Shown: positions 15,182 to 48,951 of the stretch, in pieces
Numbering within the stretch: position 1 is the first letter of the stretch
How the letters are laid out: every line of letters begins with the position of its first letter
DNA from: Bdellovibrionales bacterium RIFOXYC1_FULL_37_79
Lineage (GTDB): Bacteria > Bdellovibrionota > Bacteriovoracia > Bacteriovoracales > Bacteriovoracaceae
Direction of reading: 5' to 3'
DNA length: 64,000 nt
Assembly (NCBI GenBank): GCA_001770015.1
Contig: MEQB01000036.1
Location: 62,001 to 126,000 of the forward strand
Program-made: the position numbers and the translations under genes
Notes under the pieces: model-generated
Databases searched by the model: none
The model's input: only the letters and a program-made list of their open reading frames with translations
Told to the model about the DNA's origin: nothing

Positions 15182-15255
15182 GATTGATTAAGATCTGTAA
15201 TGAGTCAATAGAAAATATAAATCACCCAGAAAAAGAAGTAAACATTTTAATTTTT

Positions 15256-15291
15256 AGGTACGGCCTGACTTTTAGAGATGAACGTAGGCAA
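15256..15291 (+). repeat. Dispersed repeat A, copy 1
   Basis: The sequence begins AGGTACGGCCTGACTTTTAG and continues AGATGAACGTAGGCAA. It lies in the 220-base gap after tRNA-Thr. Three further copies (16460, 16719, 18273) in the same orientation lie within 3 kb. Confidence 0.75.
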
Positions 15292-16556: not shown

Positions 16557-16757
16557 ATGCACCTTTGCTCAGTTATCATTACAATTATATTTTTGTCCAT
16601 CATCATACTTAACTCATCTTGTTCACAACATGCTCTTACTATAAAAAAAGACTTCCTGACCTTTGAAATGAAACGCGTTGTAAATGATGACATACTTGAA
16701 CTTCATCTGGGTACTAAAAGGTACGGCCTAACTTTTAGGGATTCATCTAGTCTTTAA
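16557..16757 (+). CDS. Short lipoprotein-like protein, possibly truncated
   Basis: A protein of 66 residues; ATG 16557 follows AAGGA with about 8 bases. The N-terminus is a hydrophobic signal ending in LNSSCSQ, a weak lipobox. The last 12 residues (RYGLTFRDSSSL) are simply the translation of dispersed repeat A, so the original 3' end was probably lost when the repeat arrived. No function can be given. Confidence 0.5.
   Translation: MHLCSVIITIIFLSIIILNSSCSQHALTIKKDFLTFEMKRVVNDDILELHLGTKRYGLTFRDSSSL
16719..16750 (+). repeat. Dispersed repeat A, copy 3
   Basis: AGGTACGGCCTAACTTTTAG followed by GGATTCATCTAG. It forms the 3' end of the short lipoprotein-like gene. Confidence 0.7.
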
Positions 16758-16794: not shown

Positions 16795-16893
16795 GTTTCC
16801 AAGAAAAAAAATTGTAAAAAGTATCTATTCTTTACATTTCAAAAAAATTTTTTTTCATTACTTCCAAATTATCTAATATGTTGAAAACATTAT
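16795..16893 (-). pseudogene. Remnant of a TIGR02147 regulator gene, copy 1
   Basis: Reverse translation gives VFNILDNLEVMKKNFFEM, a stop, then RIDTFYNF. The intact regulator at 19624 begins NIFNSLSYRDIIKKIILE and continues KKIDSSYNF. The nucleotide match with 19520-19625 is clear in several blocks. Only the first ~35 codons remain, with a stop inside. Confidence 0.65.
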
Positions 16894-16903
16894 TAATACC
16901 AAA

Positions 16904-17000
16904 CTTTAGTTTATTTTTTATATAACTTAAGTTAAATTTTTTATTTATATTAAATTTACTTTAAGACGCGCAACGATTAAATTCACTCCATACAAAATAC
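16904..17000 (+). promoter_or_regulatory. Duplicated promoter block P1
   Basis: This block begins TTTAGTTTATTTTTTATATAAC and ends with TTTACTTTAAGACGC and a CATACAAAATACA stretch. It recurs at 19633 (P2) and 20552 (P3), each between a regulator start (minus strand) and a secreted gene (plus strand). A 10-base palindrome AACTTAAGTT (16924-16933) occurs only in P1. Conservation of noncoding sequence while neighbouring copies decay suggests a binding site. Confidence 0.6.
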
Positions 17001-17058
17001 AGGGTTGGTAAAGAAGCCTTGATGTATTGCGTTAATTATAATATAAAAGGAGAACTTT

Positions 17059-18201
17059 ATGAAATTATTTATTATTACACTACTTTCTTTAATTTGTTTT
17101 CACTCTAACGCAGTGCCCACTAGCGCGGGCCCATGGACCAGTGGCGGGGGAAATGCGTTGGTATATCCAGATGGTACTTTACGCTTTCTAGACATTACCC
17201 CAAAAAATGAATACCCCACAACTGTCCCCAGTGAGGCTACATTAGAAAAAATTTATGCCGGCCCCAGGCATTTGAAAAAGATGTATGACAACTTTGATGA
17301 TTTTCATGCCATGTTTGCTGATGCAATCAGCGAGTGGAGACAATTTTCACCGGCATTATTTGATGACATGCTTTACAAATTAGAAAGCGTCAAAGCTTAC
17401 TTTGTGCTATTTAATACCTATAAGGCCATTATAAAGCACAACAATGCCACACTTGCCGTATACTCACCAAGTGCCCCACAAAACGTACAAGTTTTGGCAG
17501 CTCTTTATGAAGTATCTCATATATCTTTTGACAAAAGAGTCTATGATAAACTAGCAAGCGATCAGGACCGACTGGCGGTAGTGGTTCACGAAGGACTTAG
17601 GCAATACTTCTACTTATTAAATCAAGATTGGCGAATGATATCTACAGGTGAACTGGAGGAAGCGGTCAATATTTTCATCACTCAAAAACCATCACAAGTT
17701 GCCTTTAACCGACTTGAAACCGTAATTAAGCACAAGAGCATAAATTATTCAAACCTTGTACGTAATGGAAAACAAATAATTGAGCAGTTGGCACAATTAT
17801 CACAATTAACCAACGAAGAAATTAAAAAACTGGTTGCGATGATAACTACCTTTAATCAAAAAATGAGCGTGGTTACAAAATTTAATGATTATATTTCATG
17901 GGAGTTGTTGGAAACTACTGCGAAGGTATTTATCAAATTTGATACGGAATATGAATCCATTCACAAATCCATAGGAAGAAACAACCCAACACAACGATCC
18001 CAAATAATAGCTGCACGTGATGGATCAAGAGATCTATTCTGGTTTGCAACAGCAAAAATGGTTACGGCTGGTGACAATCCAGTTAATCAATTGCAAGTTC
18101 AGTTTTCGCAAGGTCTCACCCCCATTAGTGAAGTTATCTTAAAACCAGGTTACTGTTTTAATGCAGATAAATTGATTGAGATTGTTCGTTGCGATTTCTA
18201 A
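17059..18201 (+). CDS. Secreted GGGN/HE-family protein A
   Basis: A protein of 380 residues; ATG 17059 follows AAAGGAGAAC. Signal peptide MKLFIITLLSLICFHSNA. The mature N-terminus carries the family hallmark WTSGGGNALVYPDGTLRFLDI. Near residue 176 is VVVHEGLRQY, an HE motif lacking the second His of HExxH, so metal binding is uncertain. From about residue 230 there is a helical module (QIIEQLAQLSQLTNEEIKKL...FNQKMS...VFIKFDTEY). The paralogue at 21494 is co-linear over its whole length, and the product at 20704 contains two copies of the module. Probably periplasmic or secreted; function unknown. Confidence 0.8.
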   Translation: MKLFIITLLSLICFHSNAVPTSAGPWTSGGGNALVYPDGTLRFLDITPKNEYPTTVPSEATLEKIYAGPRHLKKMYDNFDDFHAMFADAISEWRQFSPALFDDMLYKLESVKAYFVLFNTYKAIIKHNNATLAVYSPSAPQNVQVLAALYEVSHISFDKRVYDKLASDQDRLAVVVHEGLRQYFYLLNQDWRMISTGELEEAVNIFITQKPSQVAFNRLETVIKHKSINYSNLVRNGKQIIEQLAQLSQLTNEEIKKLVAMITTFNQKMSVVTKFNDYISWELLETTAKVFIKFDTEYESIHKSIGRNNPTQRSQIIAARDGSRDLFWFATAKMVTAGDNPVNQLQVQFSQGLTPISEVILKPGYCFNADKLIEIVRCDF

Positions 18202-18245
18202 AATAGACACCATTACTTCTCGGCAAACACATTTAACATACTCAA

Positions 18246-18270
18246 AATGGGGGAATATATTTCCCCCATT
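18246..18270. terminator. Bidirectional terminator
   Basis: Perfect arms ATGGGGGAA and TTCCCCCAT enclose TATAT. It lies between the secreted protein A gene and the convergent acetyltransferase gene. The GGCAAACACATT block before it (18222 region) recurs after the other two copies of the locus. Confidence 0.75.
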
Positions 18271-18272
18271 TC

Positions 18273-18307
18273 AGGTACGGCCTGACTTTAAGGGATGCAC
18301 GTTATTA
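18273..18307 (+). repeat. Dispersed repeat A, copy 4
   Basis: AGGTACGGCCTGACTTTAAG followed by GGATGCACGTTATTA. It overlaps the last codons of the minus-strand acetyltransferase gene. Confidence 0.7.
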
Positions 18308-18788
18308 AATGCTCCATTATCTTTTCAATTTGTCCGTTCAATTCCATTTCCATAATCAAGCTCCACCCCCATTTGCGATATAAATTCTCTTGATTAGGGG
18401 TATGAAGAAATATCCTGGAATGACCAAGATGATTTAATTTATTTTTTACCGAGCAAAAAAGTTGATACCCCAAACCTTGCTTCCTATATTCAGGTAATAC
18501 ATAGAGCGATCCAAACCAAGGGGAGAAATCCTTGGTCTTATCATTCCCCCACTTTAAATAAGTTCCCGCAATACCAACAATTTTCCCATCAACGTAACCA
18601 ACTAAAGTGAACACGTTGGGATCTTGAATTTCTAATTGTTTTTGTAAACCTAAAATATATTTTTCTACAGAGCTTTCCTTATAATATTTGCCAAAACCAT
18701 CGTATTTCATCTGAGCGACCTTTGAAATCTGTTCATCTTCGTTGGTTAATGATCTCACTTGCCAGGATGACCATTTCGGCATACTCAT
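18288..18788 (-). CDS. GNAT family N-acetyltransferase
   Basis: A protein of 166 residues from ATG 18788, which has AAAGG 6 bases before it; an in-frame ATG at 18815 would overlap the upstream gene and lacks a site. The acetyl-CoA motif A is SLYVLPEYRKQGLGYQLF (RKQGLG), with a preceding strand FTLVGYVDGKIVGIAG. C-terminal YRKWGW corresponds to motif B. It follows the TIGR02147 regulator by 11 bases and is surely cotranscribed with it. Substrate unknown. Confidence 0.82.
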   Translation of the reverse strand: MSMPKWSSWQVRSLTNEDEQISKVAQMKYDGFGKYYKESSVEKYILGLQKQLEIQDPNVFTLVGYVDGKIVGIAGTYLKWGNDKTKDFSPWFGSLYVLPEYRKQGLGYQLFCSVKNKLNHLGHSRIFLHTPNQENLYRKWGWSLIMEMELNGQIEKIMEHLITCIP

Positions 18789-18799
18789 ACACGCCTTTC

Positions 18800-19624
18800 T
18801 TAATTTTCCATCCACGGAAAAAGATCAAAGTTCATAAAGTATGCATTTTCTGATTCTGCCTTTTGAGCAGCTGGTTCAATCTCTTTTAAAAATTCAAAAA
18901 ATTTCCCTTGAATAAATTTCCGCGTGTCCTCCGTCGCTGCAAAAACCACCGCAAAACTATACGAAGACTCGGCTTTGAGATTTCTCAATTTTTGCATGGA
19001 AAGATTTTTAAGCTCATTTCTCCAAGTTTTATAAATGGGACTGTCGGAGGGCAAATGCAGGCCATCTTGTATGACTTTTATTTCTTTTCCTTCTTTGGAA
19101 ATAATTCCGAGTTTTTCCAAAGTCGTTATTGAATTCATGATTCTAAACACCGGAACATTAATATCTTTGGCAAGTAATTGGATATTTTTCCTATACCTTT
19201 CGATGGCCAAGGAAACATGAACTATTTGGTTTATAGGATCCAAATAGTAGTGATAAATTTCCTCCGTATCAACCGTCATTTTTTTTGCCGAAATATATTG
19301 ATCCGTTTTTTCGTATTTGGCCTGCATGGATTTGATCATGGATAGCAATTTATCTTTTCTGTCTTTTAAACCACTCCTTTCATAATTTAAAAGTAATTCC
19401 AGGTAGTGAGATTGATCACTGTTTAATTTTAAAAATTCACACACCATATAAAGCTGATCAAAATTTAAGTCTGCTTTACCTTTTAAACAGTTTGATAAAT
19501 AGGTTTTTTGCACTCTAATTGCTTTGGCCAAATTTTGAAAATTGTAAGAACTATCTATTTTTTTCCTTTCCAAAATAATCTTTTTTATTATATCTCGATA
19601 ACTTAAACTGTTGAATATATTCAT
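18800..19624 (-). CDS. TIGR02147 family regulator (intact copy)
   Basis: A protein of 274 residues, typical for TIGR02147/DUF4423. The N-terminus (NIFNSLSYRDIIKKIILERKK) and the HTH-like LAKAIRVQKTYLSNCLKGKADLNFDQ (about 28-53) match the family. The central HYYLDPINQIV and the later winged-helix part (DINVPVFRIMNSITTLEKLGII) are also present. Members are presumed DNA-binding regulators. It is divergent from promoter block P2, and decayed copies of its 5' end lie next to P1 and P3, so it may control all copies of this locus and its own acetyltransferase partner. Confidence 0.85.
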   Translation of the reverse strand: MNIFNSLSYRDIIKKIILERKKIDSSYNFQNLAKAIRVQKTYLSNCLKGKADLNFDQLYMVCEFLKLNSDQSHYLELLLNYERSGLKDRKDKLLSMIKSMQAKYEKTDQYISAKKMTVDTEEIYHYYLDPINQIVHVSLAIERYRKNIQLLAKDINVPVFRIMNSITTLEKLGIISKEGKEIKVIQDGLHLPSDSPIYKTWRNELKNLSMQKLRNLKAESSYSFAVVFAATEDTRKFIQGKFFEFLKEIEPAAQKAESENAYFMNFDLFPWMEN

Positions 19625-19632
19625 AATACTTA

Positions 19633-19730
19633 ATTTTAGTTTATTTTTTATATAACTTCAACATAATCATTTATTAATATTAAATTTACTAAAATGCATA
19701 CGATGGTTAAATTAGCCCACAAAAAATGAG
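19633..19730 (+). promoter_or_regulatory. Duplicated promoter block P2
   Basis: TTTTAGTTTATTTTTTATATAAC, then TTTATTAATATTAAATTTACT and GGTTAAATTAGCCCAC; aligns with P1 and P3. It begins 9 bases from the start codon of the intact regulator, which is transcribed away from it. On its plus side only a decayed secreted-gene copy remains. Confidence 0.6.
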
Positions 19731-19785
19731 GTTAATAAACAATTTTTAGCGCATAAGGCCAACCCTATCGTTAGGGAATAAAGAT

Positions 19786-20140
19786 AAAAAATTATTTATT
19801 ACTACAGTAAACCTAAAAAACAGCACACCTGTTGCGATTAATTGCGAACCTCTATTACTACAAAATATGCGTTACAATGGTAATTCATTACCATTAACCA
19901 TGGAGCTCGTTTCTATGTTATCAGATATCCAATTGCTTTCACGATCATTCCTAAAAGAAGTGTCCCTGAAATTTAAGCGATATTTTTTTAATGATTGCTC
20001 AAATACAGGTAAAATTTGAATATCCGGTAACTTTTAAATTTGTTATTGATAATTATAATATATTTGAAAGTTTTTTTGGTGGCCTGGAAGATAAACAATA
20101 TGTTTCGATGTCAATCGACCTTACCAACAGCTTATAATCT
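19786..20140 (+). pseudogene. Decayed copy of the GGGN secreted-protein gene
   Basis: AAAAAATTATTTATTACTAC (19786 on) resembles the signal-peptide start ATGAAATTATTTATTATTAC of the genes at 17059 and 20704, but the ATG is lost. Two short open stretches follow: one ends NDCSNTGKI near 20020, and one gives FVIDNYNIFESFFGGLEDK and ends near 20137. Neither shows GGGN or HE. The position, between P2 and a terminator block shared with the intact copies, supports a dead third copy; the coding similarity beyond the signal peptide is weak. Confidence 0.55.
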
Positions 20141-20170
20141 CTAAGCTTAGAAAAAAGAGTTTGTTATTTA

Positions 20171-20205
20171 TCAGGCAAGAAGTTTATACAAAACGTCTTG
20201 CCTGA
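20171..20205 (+). terminator. Hairpin after decayed copy
   Basis: TCAGGCAAGA and TCTTGCCTGA are perfect arms separated by about 15 bases. No long T-run follows. Confidence 0.5.
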
Positions 20206-20289
20206 ATTTCATTCTGATATAACCCCACAACCTCTTGGCAAACACATTCTCCATACTCAAAAAGCAGCACAGGTACTTTTGCGAGATAT

Positions 20290-20318
20290 GGGGGCGATAA
20301 TTATCGTCCCCGTTTTTT
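20290..20318 (+). terminator. Rho-independent terminator
   Basis: GGGG-CGATAATTATCG-TCCCC followed by GTTTTTTT. It is preceded by TTGGCAAACACATT, shared with the 3' flanks at 18222 and 22646, which marks the end of the duplicated unit. Confidence 0.8.
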
Positions 20319-20382
20319 TGTAAATGTTATTCACCCTCCTGAGGAGGGCAGCAGGAAAATAGCACAAAAAGTAAATCAAGAT

Positions 20383-20540
20383 TTAAGTCAGTCTGCCGCT
20401 TAAACAGTTTGAAAAGTAAGTTTTTGTGCTCAAATTGTTTTGAATAAATTGTGAGGATTGTAAAAACTATCTATATTTCACCTCTCCAAAATATTATTTT
20501 TGACTACTGATAGAAATGTAACTAATTGAATATATTAATT
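20383..20540 (-). pseudogene. Remnant of a TIGR02147 regulator gene, copy 2
   Basis: Reverse translation gives IFN-stop-LHFYQ, then SKIIFWRGEI, IVFTIL, KQFEHKNLLFKLFKRQTDLNLD. This aligns along the first ~55 codons of the intact regulator (KIIL, YNFQNLAKAIRVQKTYLSNCLKGKADLNFD). Several stops and substitutions show that it is dead. It lies directly before P3, as the intact copy lies before P2. Confidence 0.75.
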
Positions 20541-20551
20541 TAAAATCATAA

Positions 20552-20655
20552 TAGTTAATTTTTTATATAACTTTAATTAAAATGTTTATTCATATATAAT
20601 TTACCTTTAGACGCACAGGGATTAAAGTCGCACCATACAAAATACAAGGTTGATC
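20552..20655 (+). promoter_or_regulatory. Duplicated promoter block P3
   Basis: TAGTTAATTTTTTATATAAC, TTTATTCATATATAATTTACC, TTTAGACGCACAGGGATTAAA and CATACAAAATACAAGGTTG match P1 most closely (both keep GACGC and CATACAAAATACA). Precedes the domain-shuffled gene at 20704. Confidence 0.6.
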
Positions 20656-20703
20656 AAAAATTATTGACATTGAGCGTCAACCGTATTACAAAAGGAGAAC
20701 TTT

Positions 20704-21450
20704 ATGAAATTATTTATTATTACACTATTTTCTTTAATCTGTTTCCACACTAGCGCAGCGTTTCAAACTAACGATGGGGGAAATTCTGTCTGTTCCCAGA
20801 ATTATTCTGAGCAGATCACTTCGGGCAACAAAATTATCAAAGCACTGGAGCAAACCTCAAAATTTAGTACAAATGAAATTGCAGTAGTTTTATCAAAGAT
20901 TGCAAAATTTAATTATGAAATGAATTTAGCCCTAGCACACGATACTGAAACCAGCTCTAAAGATTTGTTTCCAGTTGCTAACCAACTGTTTATTAAATTT
21001 GATAGTCAATATGCTATTTTATTTAAAACTATAAAACATGACAGGAAGCTTTTGGACAAACTCAAAAATGAGTTCAAAAATTCAGACAATATTCGTTATG
21101 CCTTGGCAGCAAAATATTATGCTACCCAGATAGATTTGGGAAACCAAATTATCGAAGATTTGACACAGTCATCACACTTTAGCTTAGATGAAATTGCAGT
21201 AATTTTATCAAGGATTGCAAAATTCAACCTCGAAATAACTTCACTCTTGGAAAACAATTGTGTCAGAACTACGAAGTTACTTGAAGTTGTGTATCATCTA
21301 TATGTTGAGTTTGATTATAAATTTGATATTTTTTATTCCACTCTAGATAATAACCAGGGACTCGTATCCAAACTTAAAGATGAATTAACAAACTCAGAAG
21401 ATAATTACTTGGCAATGGTGAGTCTCCGCTATTGGTACAAAACAAAATGA
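20704..21450 (+). CDS. Secreted protein with two tandem GGGN-family helical modules
   Basis: A protein of 248 residues; ATG 20704 follows AAAAGGAGAAC. The signal peptide (MKLFIITLFSLICFHTSA) is nearly identical to that of protein A. The GGGN segment is reduced to DGGNSVC and the HE domain is absent. Residues ~33-137 and ~138-242 are two copies of the helical module (QIT/GNKIIKALEQTS...EIAVVLSKIAKFN and LGNQIIEDLTQSS...EIAVILSRIAKFN). A deletion of the HE domain plus module duplication explains it. It could modulate or compete with its full-length neighbours; that is speculation. Confidence 0.75.
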   Translation: MKLFIITLFSLICFHTSAAFQTNDGGNSVCSQNYSEQITSGNKIIKALEQTSKFSTNEIAVVLSKIAKFNYEMNLALAHDTETSSKDLFPVANQLFIKFDSQYAILFKTIKHDRKLLDKLKNEFKNSDNIRYALAAKYYATQIDLGNQIIEDLTQSSHFSLDEIAVILSRIAKFNLEITSLLENNCVRTTKLLEVVYHLYVEFDYKFDIFYSTLDNNQGLVSKLKDELTNSEDNYLAMVSLRYWYKTK

Positions 21451-21493
21451 TTATTTTAGCTTTGGGACTTAAAAAAATGTTATGGGAAAATTT

Positions 21494-22633
21494 ATGAAAT
21501 TCTATATTGTTGTCTTACTCTTTTTAATTTGTTTTCAAGTCACTGCTGGTGTCTGGACCAGCGGTGGGGGAAATGCGCTAGTGTACCCGGATGGTACACT
21601 ACGCTTTTTGGATATTACCAAAAAAAATGAGTACCCCATTGTTGCCCCCAGTAAAAAGGTGCTGGAGAAAATTTATTCCGGCCCACGAAAATTAAAAACA
21701 CTCTCTGTTAAATTTGATAAATTTTACTCCATGTTTTTTGAAGTTGTTAGCGATTGGAGAGACTATTCCCCTGCTTTAATTGATGACATACTGTCTAGGG
21801 TTGAACGTATGGAAGCCTCCTTTATTTTATACAATTATTATAAAGCTTATTTAAAGGGTGATAATTCCAATCTCATTTTGTACTCTCCAAGTGCCAGAAA
21901 AGATGTACAAGTTTTGGCTGCCTCCTACACCGTTTCCCATATTTATTTTCACAAAAGAATTTATGATAAACTGGCAACCGATACAGACCGTCGGGCCCTA
22001 GTCGTGCACGAAGGACTCAGGCAATACCTCTACTCATTAAATCAAGATTGGCGAAATATATCGATTAGTGACCTCGAAGAAGCAGTTAATATCATGGTTA
22101 CCCAAAAACCATCTCTCATCGCCGCCAAACATCTTGAGACAATAGTTGAACACCATAACACCGACTACTCCACACTCATAAATTATGGCAGGGAACTGAT
22201 TGACCAGCTAGACCAAGCTTCAGCGTTAAACTCAGAAGAAATCAAAGAACTATTAACCAAAGTCACAAAATTCAATCAAGAAACCAGCACCATTAAACAT
22301 TTTAATTGTAACAACCATGATCTGTTTTTCGTTGTTATGAAAGTCTTTCACGCCTTGAATGATCAATTTAATTTTTTGCGTAATTCCGTTGGGAAAAACC
22401 AAGAACAATTATCCATACTAAAAAATGAATTAACCAGATCGGAAGAAACCAGTTGGCGAGCAGTCGCAGACGGTTATGATGAGAGTACTAATCTGGTCAC
22501 TCAACATTCAAGGCGAATCAATGATTTTATTAAGACAATAGCAGAATGGTTTGATCCAACTAGCGATGTTAAATTAAAATGGGGATCTTGCTATGATGCG
22601 AACACACTAAAAATTGTTGGTTGCTTCTTTTAA
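21494..22633 (+). CDS. Secreted GGGN/HE-family protein B
   Basis: A protein of 379 residues. ATG 21494 is used because the GGGAAAATTT before it is the decayed equivalent of the GGAGAACTTT leader of protein A; an in-frame ATG exists at 21482. Signal peptide ends FQVTAG. It contains WTSGGGNALVYPDGTLRFLDI almost unchanged, LVVHEGLRQYLYSLN near residue 175, and one helical module at the C-terminus ending CYDANTLKIVGCFF. It lies 43 bases after the module-only gene, probably on the same transcript. Confidence 0.8.
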   Translation: MKFYIVVLLFLICFQVTAGVWTSGGGNALVYPDGTLRFLDITKKNEYPIVAPSKKVLEKIYSGPRKLKTLSVKFDKFYSMFFEVVSDWRDYSPALIDDILSRVERMEASFILYNYYKAYLKGDNSNLILYSPSARKDVQVLAASYTVSHIYFHKRIYDKLATDTDRRALVVHEGLRQYLYSLNQDWRNISISDLEEAVNIMVTQKPSLIAAKHLETIVEHHNTDYSTLINYGRELIDQLDQASALNSEEIKELLTKVTKFNQETSTIKHFNCNNHDLFFVVMKVFHALNDQFNFLRNSVGKNQEQLSILKNELTRSEETSWRAVADGYDESTNLVTQHSRRINDFIKTIAEWFDPTSDVKLKWGSCYDANTLKIVGCFF

Positions 22634-22762
22634 TACAGATATTTCTGGCAAACACATTTAGGGTATGGAATTTTTATAGGAAACGTTTTTTTTACAGAAT
22701 TTTTAGTTTTAGTGCTAAACTTCGCAAGTGTTTTTTAAGTTAATCTAATCGAAGGCAAAAGC

Positions 22763-46539: not shown

Positions 46540-47283
46540 ATGGATTTCAATGTTCAAAAAATTATTATCGACGAATTCAAATCAATAAAGGTTCAAAATC
46601 CTGCTTATTCCATTCGTGCCTACGCCAAAAAACTCAACATACCAGTCTCGGCCCTGTCTAATTTTTTAAATGGAAAACGGTCAATCACCCGCAAAATGGC
46701 CCTAAAAATTATCCCGAAATTAAACATTTCACCCGATATAAAAACCAAATTACTTTTTAAGCAGTTCAAGTCTGATGATGGCTCCAAACAAACACTCACC
46801 CTGGACTATTTCGCCACTATTTCTGACTGGTACTATTTTGCCATTTTATCACTTGCGGAAATCGATAATTTTAAAGCAACTCCCAAATGGGTGGCCAAAA
46901 GATTAAACATACCACTTAAAACTGCCGAGCATGCCATCTCTATCCTAATCAGACTTAGAATGCTTGAAATGGATGCTAGTGGCTCTTACTTTCCAACTGG
47001 CATTCAATTTAAAACCCCAACAGATATTGTCAGTCATTGTTTGAAGAAACATACTCTTCAAACTCTTGAACTGGCAAAAAAATCACTTATCAATGACTCC
47101 ATAGAAAAAAGAGACTTCTCCACCACCACCATGGCCATTAACCCTGGTAATCTACCTGAGGCAAAAAAAATGATTGCCGATTTCAGGAAAAAGTTATCAC
47201 AAAAACTTGAACTTGGTGACAAAAAAGAAGTATACAAACTCTCCATTCAATTATTTCCACTTTCAAGGAATACCGATGAATAA
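46540..47283 (+). CDS. TIGR02147 family regulator
   Basis: A protein of 247 residues. N-terminal HTH (SIRAYAKKLNIPVSALSNFLNGKRSITRKMALKI, about 24-58), then DYFATISDWYYFAILSLAEI and a second winged-helix-like part (PKWVAKRLNIPLKTAEHAISILIRLRMLE), which are the family landmarks. Its stop overlaps the start of the secreted protein gene (47276), so regulator and secreted protein are translated together. This repeats the regulator-secreted protein association at 16.8-22.7 kb. Confidence 0.88.
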   Translation: MDFNVQKIIIDEFKSIKVQNPAYSIRAYAKKLNIPVSALSNFLNGKRSITRKMALKIIPKLNISPDIKTKLLFKQFKSDDGSKQTLTLDYFATISDWYYFAILSLAEIDNFKATPKWVAKRLNIPLKTAEHAISILIRLRMLEMDASGSYFPTGIQFKTPTDIVSHCLKKHTLQTLELAKKSLINDSIEKRDFSTTTMAINPGNLPEAKKMIADFRKKLSQKLELGDKKEVYKLSIQLFPLSRNTDE

Positions 47284-48304
47284 TTGCCAACTACTCTTTA
47301 TTCTACTCTGTGTTTTTATTACCCCCTACTCTTTAGCTGGGCATGATACCGGAAATGGAGGTGATGGACTCATTTGTAAAAACTTGGATGGAACAATTAA
47401 ATCCATAGAGCTTCTTGACTATTACGAAGCTACCGTTCGAGATCTAATCCCGATCAATCTCGGGCCTGATAACCAATATCAATCCATGCTTTCCTACGTT
47501 ATAAAACGCTTAGAACAACTATCCCCCCAAAGAGCTAAAATTTATCAGGAGCAATTAAGTGCGTTTTTAATAGAAACAAAATTTTTAAATGATACTATTT
47601 TCCTGGACATCCCCGATTCCGCTCACGATTTCATCCCTGCCGGGTGCTCAATAGAACAACTTGCTATTCAACGAAAAAAACTCCTTAAATATGATAAAAA
47701 ATATTTTATCAATAACGATTATTGGCCCCATCTTCCCCCTCGAGATCAGGCAGGACTTTTACTTCATGAAGTCATTTATACAGAGGCCCTTAATTACGGA
47801 CACCAAAATTCAAAGCTAGTCAGAAAATTTAATGGCTACCTGTCTTCAGATCAAATTCAAAATCACGATTGGTATGATTTTGCATCTATGATCCAGAAAT
47901 TTAAAATGGGTTATATCGAGTACCAAGGGCTTATACTAAATCATTTTGGGTTAGGATTTTGTCCAGATGATGAACAATACTGTATTAATGGTTACGTTGA
48001 CTCTGGAGTTCTTTCTTTAAATGGAACAAACTATCAAATCGAAGGTTATGTTAACATAAACAGAAATAAAACTCTTAATTGTGCAGATACTGTAGCGGGA
48101 CAGTTTGTTACTATTAACCAGAAGATCAGGGAACTCGCCCCCTATAAGGTAAAACAACGTTTTCGTTGGAGTCTCTGTCAGAATAACAAAAATAAATTGA
48201 CCGAAGCAGTGGTACTCGCCCCCGACGGATACGAACATTGTACCAAAACCCTTCTTGGTTCATTTAAGTGTCAAAAAGTACCTACTGCAGGAGAAAATCA
48301 ATGA
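47276..48304 (+). CDS. Secreted GGGN/HE-family relative
   Basis: A protein of 342 residues. ATG 47276 is used because it follows AAGGAA and starts a proper signal peptide (ends YSLAGHD); a longer frame exists upstream. The mature start DTGNGGDGLICKNLDGTIKSIELLDYYEA is a variant of the GGGN hallmark. Residues ~165-200 contain AGLLLHEVIYTEALNYGHQNS, the HE motif without second His, and the YLSSD continuation seen in related proteins. The C-terminus (NGYVDSGVLSLNGTNYQIEGYV) is beta-rich. Encoded with a TIGR02147 regulator. Function unknown. Confidence 0.78.
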   Translation: MNNCQLLFILLCVFITPYSLAGHDTGNGGDGLICKNLDGTIKSIELLDYYEATVRDLIPINLGPDNQYQSMLSYVIKRLEQLSPQRAKIYQEQLSAFLIETKFLNDTIFLDIPDSAHDFIPAGCSIEQLAIQRKKLLKYDKKYFINNDYWPHLPPRDQAGLLLHEVIYTEALNYGHQNSKLVRKFNGYLSSDQIQNHDWYDFASMIQKFKMGYIEYQGLILNHFGLGFCPDDEQYCINGYVDSGVLSLNGTNYQIEGYVNINRNKTLNCADTVAGQFVTINQKIRELAPYKVKQRFRWSLCQNNKNKLTEAVVLAPDGYEHCTKTLLGSFKCQKVPTAGENQ

Positions 48305-48951
48305 AACCAATTATGCTTTTTCTGATAGTGCTTATTAGTTTTAATTTTGCTCAAGCGGATATTTTTAACTCCGAAAAAGTTTTACCCACCAGTCAAGCCA
48401 TTGTTTGTAGAGATTTAAATCACAATATATTAGAAGCACAGCTATATGATTATTATGAAGCAAAGGTTCTAAGAGATATTAATATTAACCTTGGCAGTTC
48501 GAATGTAGTTTTTTTAGAAAAAGCCCTGATGGCAATCGAAAGACTAAAGAAATATGATCATAAACGCTACGTAATTTACCGCTCTCGCATCAATGATTTC
48601 TTGAGTCAAACACTTTTTAAAGAAAACATTAGTATCGATAGTGAAGAGTACAGTGGAGATATGATTTATCCCAAAGGATGTAAAATTGAAAATGTTTTAA
48701 AAATATTTAAAGGTGATGATCTACCTGGGAATAAAAAATATCTGATCAATTCAGATATATGGAATGCTTTTGACAATAACAGTAAAGCGGGGTTGATTAT
48801 CCATGAGGCAATGTTGCAACGGAATATTTTCACTCTTAATTACAAAATCACTAAACGGATGCATGCTCGAACGTTTAATAGTTTAATAGCCAGTGACTTG
48901 ATCAAGAAAATTACTCAAGAGGAATATACTGATTTCATCGGTAGAATCTAA
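48301..48951 (+). CDS. Secreted GGGN/HE-family relative, short
   Basis: A protein of 216 residues from ATG 48301, with AGGAG upstream and an ATGA overlap with the previous gene. Signal peptide ends NFAQAD. It follows the plan of the preceding protein (IVCRDLNHNILEAQLYDYYEAKV, then LIIHEAMLQRN) but lacks the GGG/GNGG stretch and the C-terminal beta domain. A tandem paralogue that has lost domains. Confidence 0.75.
   Translation: MKPIMLFLIVLISFNFAQADIFNSEKVLPTSQAIVCRDLNHNILEAQLYDYYEAKVLRDININLGSSNVVFLEKALMAIERLKKYDHKRYVIYRSRINDFLSQTLFKENISIDSEEYSGDMIYPKGCKIENVLKIFKGDDLPGNKKYLINSDIWNAFDNNSKAGLIIHEAMLQRNIFTLNYKITKRMHARTFNSLIASDLIKKITQEEYTDFIGRI

Follow-up and report, generated by a model that had tools for sequence, protein, structure and literature searches.

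Introduction

Activators of the PhoB type, which belong to the class II activators, recognise boxes arranged as 11-bp direct repeats. The TIGR02147 (Fsuc_second) and DUF4423 families are defined by sequence only, and they represent a large paralogous regulator family for which the literature searched gives no function, operator or ligand. A search of open-access PMC for TIGR02147 or CHP02147 returned no literature on the family, and no operator, target or ligand was found there. Bd3700 (DUF4423) is listed among the proteins that Bdellovibrio makes at raised levels while growing in prey (PMC12546842). Here, we describe a TIGR02147/DUF4423 locus in a 64,000-nucleotide stretch of the genome of Bdellovibrionales bacterium RIFOXYC1_FULL_37_79 (hereafter, the window), in which a unit of regulator, promoter and secreted-protein gene occurs three times. 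A short element in its promoters, termed site B, is well supported as the predicted operator of a TIGR02147 regulator subfamily; for this family of regulators, it is probably the first binding site that can be recognised.

Identification of Site B

The window genome (4.36 Mb, 74 contigs) falls in a GTDB family that includes metagenome-assembled genomes (MAGs) named Bacteriovoracaceae, Halobacteriovoraceae and Bdellovibrio. A single scan of contigs yielded 37 loci with relatives of the window regulator (26–47% identity) in Bdellovibrionota-type or unclassified MAGs, the assemblies of which may contain errors. The independent number of loci is lower, because four contigs were reached twice (L083=L096, L084=L102, L085=L101 and L086=L105). 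At many of the regions upstream of these relatives, site B was found at the same place, as a tandem of TTAATTTAC-like half-sites with an 11-bp pitch that ends in the -35 hexamer. The cross-species consensus comprises two TTAATTwAC-like half-sites 11 bp apart, and it is clearest in L106 (AATTAATTAACAATTAATTAAC), L107 and L112. At widths of 14, 18 and 22, a motif search of 43 upstream regions, window excluded, reached log-likelihoods of 93.7, 150.4 and 175.9, respectively, as against 39–49, 51–64 and 66–71 in shuffled sets.

A matrix of 24 bases was built from 14 representative sites outside the window, with the promoters of the three units (P1, P2 and P3) held out. It detected site B on the plus strand of all three, at 16937..16960 in unit 1 (15.5 bits), where the proposed operator overlaps the -35, at 19667..19690 in unit 2 (15.3 bits) and at 20582..20605 in unit 3 (12.2 bits). 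An earlier reading of this DNA, made from the sequence only, had suggested aligning P1 to P3 with the upstream regions of homologues and had proposed that the array could reveal a TIGR02147 operator; the comparison with other loci was made, and the proposal is supported by the recurrence of the element beside related regulators in other Bdellovibrionota. Among 188 intergenic regions, taken from all the loci and the window, 33 scored at least 11.3 bits, and all 33 belong to the loci of regulator relatives, where they either lie between regulator and target or precede a second secreted gene encoded there. Among the unrelated regions, the highest score was 10.3 bits.

The strongest support for site B as a candidate operator comes from these second genes. 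In L095, L096, L097, L099, L100, L101 and L102, a site B of 17.7–20.8 bits is oriented toward a convergent gene for a protein of 540–590 aa, most of them with a recognisable signal peptide. The seven sites lie outside the training set and no regulator start adjoins them. One regulator facing two putative operator-bearing promoters would follow the same logic as the window array.

Conservation and Specificity within the Window Genome

The sequence-only reading had described conserved promoter blocks of about 100 bases. The blocks do align, at 74–81% identity (ungapped repeat pairs 16907–17113/20552–20758 at 81% and 16808–16983/19538–19713 at 74%), but the excess of conservation is confined to two short elements and the -10 box. 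The dead regulators are 70–74% identical between units, about equal to the blocks as a whole in the three-way alignment; aligning block against block is thus too weak as proof of selection, and it was replaced by the cross-species comparison. The elements that stand out are AGTTwATTTTTTATATAACTT (site A), TTTATTnATATwwAATTTACy (site B) and the -10 box, with the remaining intergenic DNA at 51–64% identity. Between units 1 and 2, site A, site B and the -10 are identical at 49/52 positions versus 72/103 in the dead regulators (p 2e-4), while the same comparison gave 44/52 and p 0.04 for units 1 and 3, and p 0.09 for units 2 and 3; relative to the rest of the intergenic DNA, the three pairs gave p 2e-8, 0.006 and 6e-5, all of these p-values being generous because the boundaries of the elements were partly chosen by eye. 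Taken alone, the conservation of the elements within the array is suggestive only.

Exactly three sequences genome-wide match the window type of site B with zero mismatches, and they are P1, P2 and P3. Four further matches were obtained at two mismatches, which is the level of the reversed-pattern control. These were dismissed as extra operators, as three lie on or inside frames and one is intergenic and points away from both genes; none of the four is upstream of a secreted gene. The partner of a paralogue, C11, is preceded by a separate site B (21.4 bits), so paralogues of 35–37% identity could cross-talk with the array.

Promoter Architecture

When the other loci were aligned on site B, an information peak was revealed at the TA and T of TAnnnT, exactly 17 bases past TTTACN. 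Since a TAnnnT -10 sits at this distance, the downstream half-site contains the -35. The array follows the same geometry on the plus strand, with TAAATT 17 bases after TTTACT in both P1 (16978..16983) and P2 (19708..19713), and TAAAGT 17 bases after TTTACC in P3 (20623..20628); TTTACy-17-TAAATT was also observed at several of the seven second-gene sites. On this -35/-10 spacing, the 20-bp tandem would be centred near -41.5. The -35 and -10 hexamers are weak (4/6 each), and a scan with the sigma-70 consensus was uninformative, as promoters were no more frequent than in shuffles.

Site A lies on the regulator side and has the form GTT-N11/12-AAC. The three-way alignment and the motif search place it at 16908..16928 in unit 1 (AGTTTATTTTTTATATAACTT, of the GTT..AAC inverted-repeat type), 19638..19658 in unit 2 and 20553..20573 in unit 3. 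It recurs as a GTT..AAC inverted repeat in many loci, such as GTTTCCACGGAGGAAAC, GTTTCCTTTTTGGAAAC (L110) and GTTAACTAATTGTTAAC (L112), with a motif-search score of 80.1 versus 38–44 in shuffles, and GTTAAC is present in 8/20 regions versus 0.3 expected. Site A of the GTTTCC type tends to pair with TTAATTTC as the upstream half of site B, and GTTAAC often with TTAATTAAC (4:1 vs 0:6, p 0.015, in a small, hand-scored set uncorrected for kinship).

Structure of the Array

The units of the array have not all kept the same parts. Unit 1 retains a secreted gene and a dead regulator; unit 2, spanning 18800–20262, retains the regulator and has lost the secreted gene; unit 3 has a dead regulator and two secreted genes (20704–21450 and 21482–22633). 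The regulator remnant of unit 1 (16808..16891, minus strand) covers residues 2–29 at 43% identity with one stop (tblastn E 3e-5), and that of unit 3 (20356..20539, minus strand) covers residues 1–64 in two pieces with several stops and frameshifts (tblastn E 8e-7). The secreted gene of unit 2 is reduced to a signal-peptide coding remnant at about 19789..19809 (plus strand; blastn 90% over 21 bases) and a remnant of its 3′ end and flank at 20212..20262 (plus strand; blastn about 52 bases, 79%, E 3e-7). With the regulators of units 1 and 3 and the secreted gene of unit 2 reduced in this way, the losses are reciprocal.

The sequence-only reading had proposed three like units with stops in two regulators and one regulator left intact. 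The repeats, the remnants with their stops and the shared 3′ flank are real, GGCAAACACATT being present at 18222, 20237 and 22647 in all three units, and the frame 18800–19624 is indeed intact. Unit 2, however, carries neither a secreted gene nor a ribosome site nor a complete signal peptide, and it also lacks the leader common to units 1 and 3. AAAGGAGAAC is found at 17046 and 20691. That only one regulator is left holds within the array, but not in the genome, where TIGR02147 has 38 matches in about 36 genes.

A dispersed repeat, AGGTACGGCCTGACTTTTAGGGAT, occurs at 15252–15285, 16715–16748 and 18269–18302, in or just upstream of the array. It has 27 genome copies at ≤3 mismatches, nine of them exact, with 0 for the reversed pattern, and it is sometimes arranged in close inverted pairs (C11:228032/228063) or local clusters. 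It looks like a repetitive extragenic palindromic (REP)-type element. A search of the plasmid collection gave no match.

The Surviving Regulator

The surviving regulator (18800..19624, minus strand) has 274 aa, with an XRE-type helix-turn-helix and a C-terminal winged-helix-like domain. The product passes both curated family cut-offs, scoring 55.1 bits against TIGR02147 (cut-off 50; residues 1–272 on profile positions 2–270 of 272) and 50.8 bits against DUF4423, the C-terminal domain (cut-off 30), while its HTH_26 match is below the cut-off. An AlphaFold2 model built from 29 sequences (predicted local distance difference test, pLDDT, 87.6; predicted template modelling score, pTM, 0.57) contains five N-terminal helices of the Cro/C1 type, a long linker helix, a winged-helix-like domain (residues ~120–190) and a C-terminal helical part. 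In Foldseek, the N-terminal half resembles P22 c2, SinR and C.BclI (target template modelling score ~0.6–0.74 over ~70 residues), with E-values of ~0.2–0.4 that are not significant for the whole chain. The two halves match XRE and MarR-like proteins separately, and no whole-chain match is significant; in a profile search of solved structures, residues 142–211 weakly resemble winged-helix proteins. As a speculation, two DNA-binding-like domains in one chain could explain the two kinds of site. A peptide-sensing regulator of the RRNPP type was rejected, given the winged-helix-like domain after residue 120 and no TPR among the Foldseek matches listed.

Secreted Partners of TIGR02147 Regulators

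The secreted protein of unit 1 (17059..18201, plus strand, 380 aa) has a signal peptide, WTSGGGN and VVHEGLR. The second protein of unit 3 (21482..22633, plus strand, 383 aa) shares both motifs and is 51% identical to it; since these two frames persist open at this identity, the secreted targets appear to be under selection. The first protein of unit 3 (20704..21450, plus strand, 248 aa) has the same signal peptide but has lost WTSGGG; it contains two copies of the neighbours' C-terminal helical segment, and is apparently a rearranged derivative. No family was matched by the window secreted proteins in profile searches, and the structure model of the secreted protein was too poor to use (pLDDT 48). 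A HExxH zinc site is absent from the 17059–18201 and 21482–22633 products, which have HEGLRQ, and true HExxH was seen only in the partners of other regulators. A distant relative of the window secreted protein (27%) adjoins another TIGR02147 gene at G000:C56:7500-16500 (L076), and close by is a third frame that may be related.

Directly downstream of the regulator lies a GNAT acetyltransferase gene (18288..18815, minus strand; Pfam PF00583, E 5e-11). The sequence-only reading had counted it as part of a system with the regulator and a secreted HE protein. This proved wrong, and the GNAT was rejected as a component, as no acetyltransferase was recognised among the neighbour translations at the other loci examined. 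What recurs beside the regulators instead is a secreted protein bearing WxSGGG or GNGG, and the window HE protein is one lineage-specific member of this set. Signal-peptide-bearing neighbours, divergent or downstream on the same strand, were found for 29/36 TIGR02147 genes in the genome, by a crude predictor with a background rate of 44% per frame. A G[NSGE]GG-type motif is present in 19/29 of these neighbours versus 2/367 background frames, with a p-value (1e-20) that is optimistic because the regular expression was written after examples had been inspected; among signal-bearing frames alone, the background is 2/163. The motif (WxSGGG, GNGGD) is located after the signal peptide, and across 12 aligned divergent partners, the only invariant residues are W, two glycines and the E of HE. 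A hydrophobic-xHExx[HYRK] stretch occurs in 17/26 partners versus 24/316 background frames, and the partner of C11 matches Peptidase_M10 (matrixin-like, 29 bits vs a cut-off of 24).

Two layouts were observed, one divergent with WxSGGG partners, as in the array, and one operonic with GNGGD partners and mostly 4- or 14-base overlaps. An operonic module is present in the same window, with a TIGR02147 gene at 46540–47283, a secreted GNGGD protein at 47174–48304 and a shorter relative at 48268–48951. The operonic layout recurs in other genomes of the family and phylum with partners carrying ...GGVDVGNG, FEIGNG or GNGGG, and the G[NSGE]GG expression catches 5/22 partners there. It is conceivable, though we consider it improbable, that regulator and glycine-motif protein form a lineage-wide two-gene module in Bdellovibrionota, with dozens per genome, in which the motif is a shared sorting, processing or feedback tag; the tag would be recognised either by shared machinery or, as a signal, by the regulator, and the motif is kept although the protein bodies differ.

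Discussion

We consider it rather probable that the array is a local TIGR02147/DUF4423 regulon that was duplicated and then decayed reciprocally, with the regulator binding site B and acting on P1 and P3 in trans. The locus would have grown by duplication, after which unit 2 retained the regulator and units 1 and 3 the secreted proteins. From the sequences compared, we infer binding, autoregulation, trans regulation of units 1 and 3 and the sign of regulation. The regulator would bind site B, the downstream half of which ends in the -35 of the secreted-protein promoter. Where regulator and target diverge, the probable -35 of the regulator promoter is likewise covered by site B, and site A falls on the -10/start side of that promoter. 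Because of this placement, the surviving regulator may both use A and B at P2 to adjust its own expression and control P1 and P3 in trans. The proposal of the sequence-only reading that one surviving regulator serves all is likely, as the losses are reciprocal, only three exact sites exist in the genome, and seven related loci have two site-bearing promoters per regulator.

Several points weigh against this reading. AT-rich sequence yields chance matches, and 400 kb of the window genome contained four that scored 12.2 bits or more, so that the P3 score alone is weak. P1 to P3 are duplicates and hence not three independent sites, and in the pairs with unit 3 the elements are only modestly better conserved than the dead regulators. 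A promoter that is unusually AT-rich and serves a different activator or sigma factor could also mimic an operator. Finally, the motif search found site B absent upstream of 20 more distant operonic TIGR02147 paralogues, so the site is a feature of a subfamily rather than of the family at large. A single operator for all TIGR02147 genes was rejected, the operonic paralogues having given a weaker motif, AACACTTTGTT, instead. This motif lies upstream of or at the start of several of them (e.g., L174 and L176, about -57), scored 47.2 versus 31–36 in shuffles and is possibly another operator or promoter type.

Site B overlaps the -35 itself. It might be a promoter feature only, an UP element plus a variant -35 that RNA polymerase or a general activator reads, with the regulator binding site A and controlling mainly itself. 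The AT-richness of site B is like that of an UP element, and the inverted repeat of site A is the usual operator form of XRE-type helix-turn-helix proteins, as in L110 and L112. We nevertheless regard this explanation as unlikely, as site B has a fixed sequence with an 11-bp repeat, turned up only at loci of the subfamily when actual intergenic DNA from the genomes concerned was scored, and recurs before a second secreted gene without an adjoining regulator. Within the regulon reading, the regulator may instead repress, with the same operator and targets, by blocking RNA polymerase at the -35. Many local XRE regulators are repressors, and we hold this variant to be possible though somewhat doubtful; the centre near -41.5 and the poor -35 and -10 hexamers suit an activator, for which reason class II activation of the targets is modestly favoured.

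Plain decay would leave units 1 and 3 orphaned, beyond the control of the surviving regulator, with the blocks alike only through recent duplication. It would accommodate the missing secreted gene of unit 2 and the modest element excess, with the blocks outside the elements and the dead regulators still 50–75% identical. Sites A, B and the -10 are, however, better kept than other intergenic DNA in all three pairs, even if the elements were drawn partly by eye; moreover, the part kept is exactly the part common to other species, and the 380- and 383-aa frames persist. We regard plain decay as unlikely, and the local regulon remains the preferred reading.

The result provides a concrete predicted operator sequence and geometry for a TIGR02147 subfamily, and the array, with its reciprocal losses of regulator and targets, amounts to a natural experiment. 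Under the genome-wide rule of a regulator beside a secreted glycine-motif protein, dozens of genes labelled "hypothetical" in bacteria of predatory lineages become testable regulator–target pairs.

Compared with known systems, some related regulators have real HExxH proteins as partners, like the secreted proteases of the matrixin/metzincin group, whereas the window partners have HEGLR and match no family. The likeness to PhoB-type activators lies in geometry alone, with half-sites in tandem, spaced by one helical turn and extending into the -35; the protein family and sequence are different, there is no response-regulator domain, and activation is putative here. With local XRE/Cro-C1 regulators such as P22 c2, SinR and C.BclI, the locus shares the N-terminal helix-turn-helix, the divergent order and an inverted repeat near the regulator start. 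Unlike them, the window regulator has a second, winged-helix-like domain, and its target-side site is a direct repeat with an 11-bp pitch.

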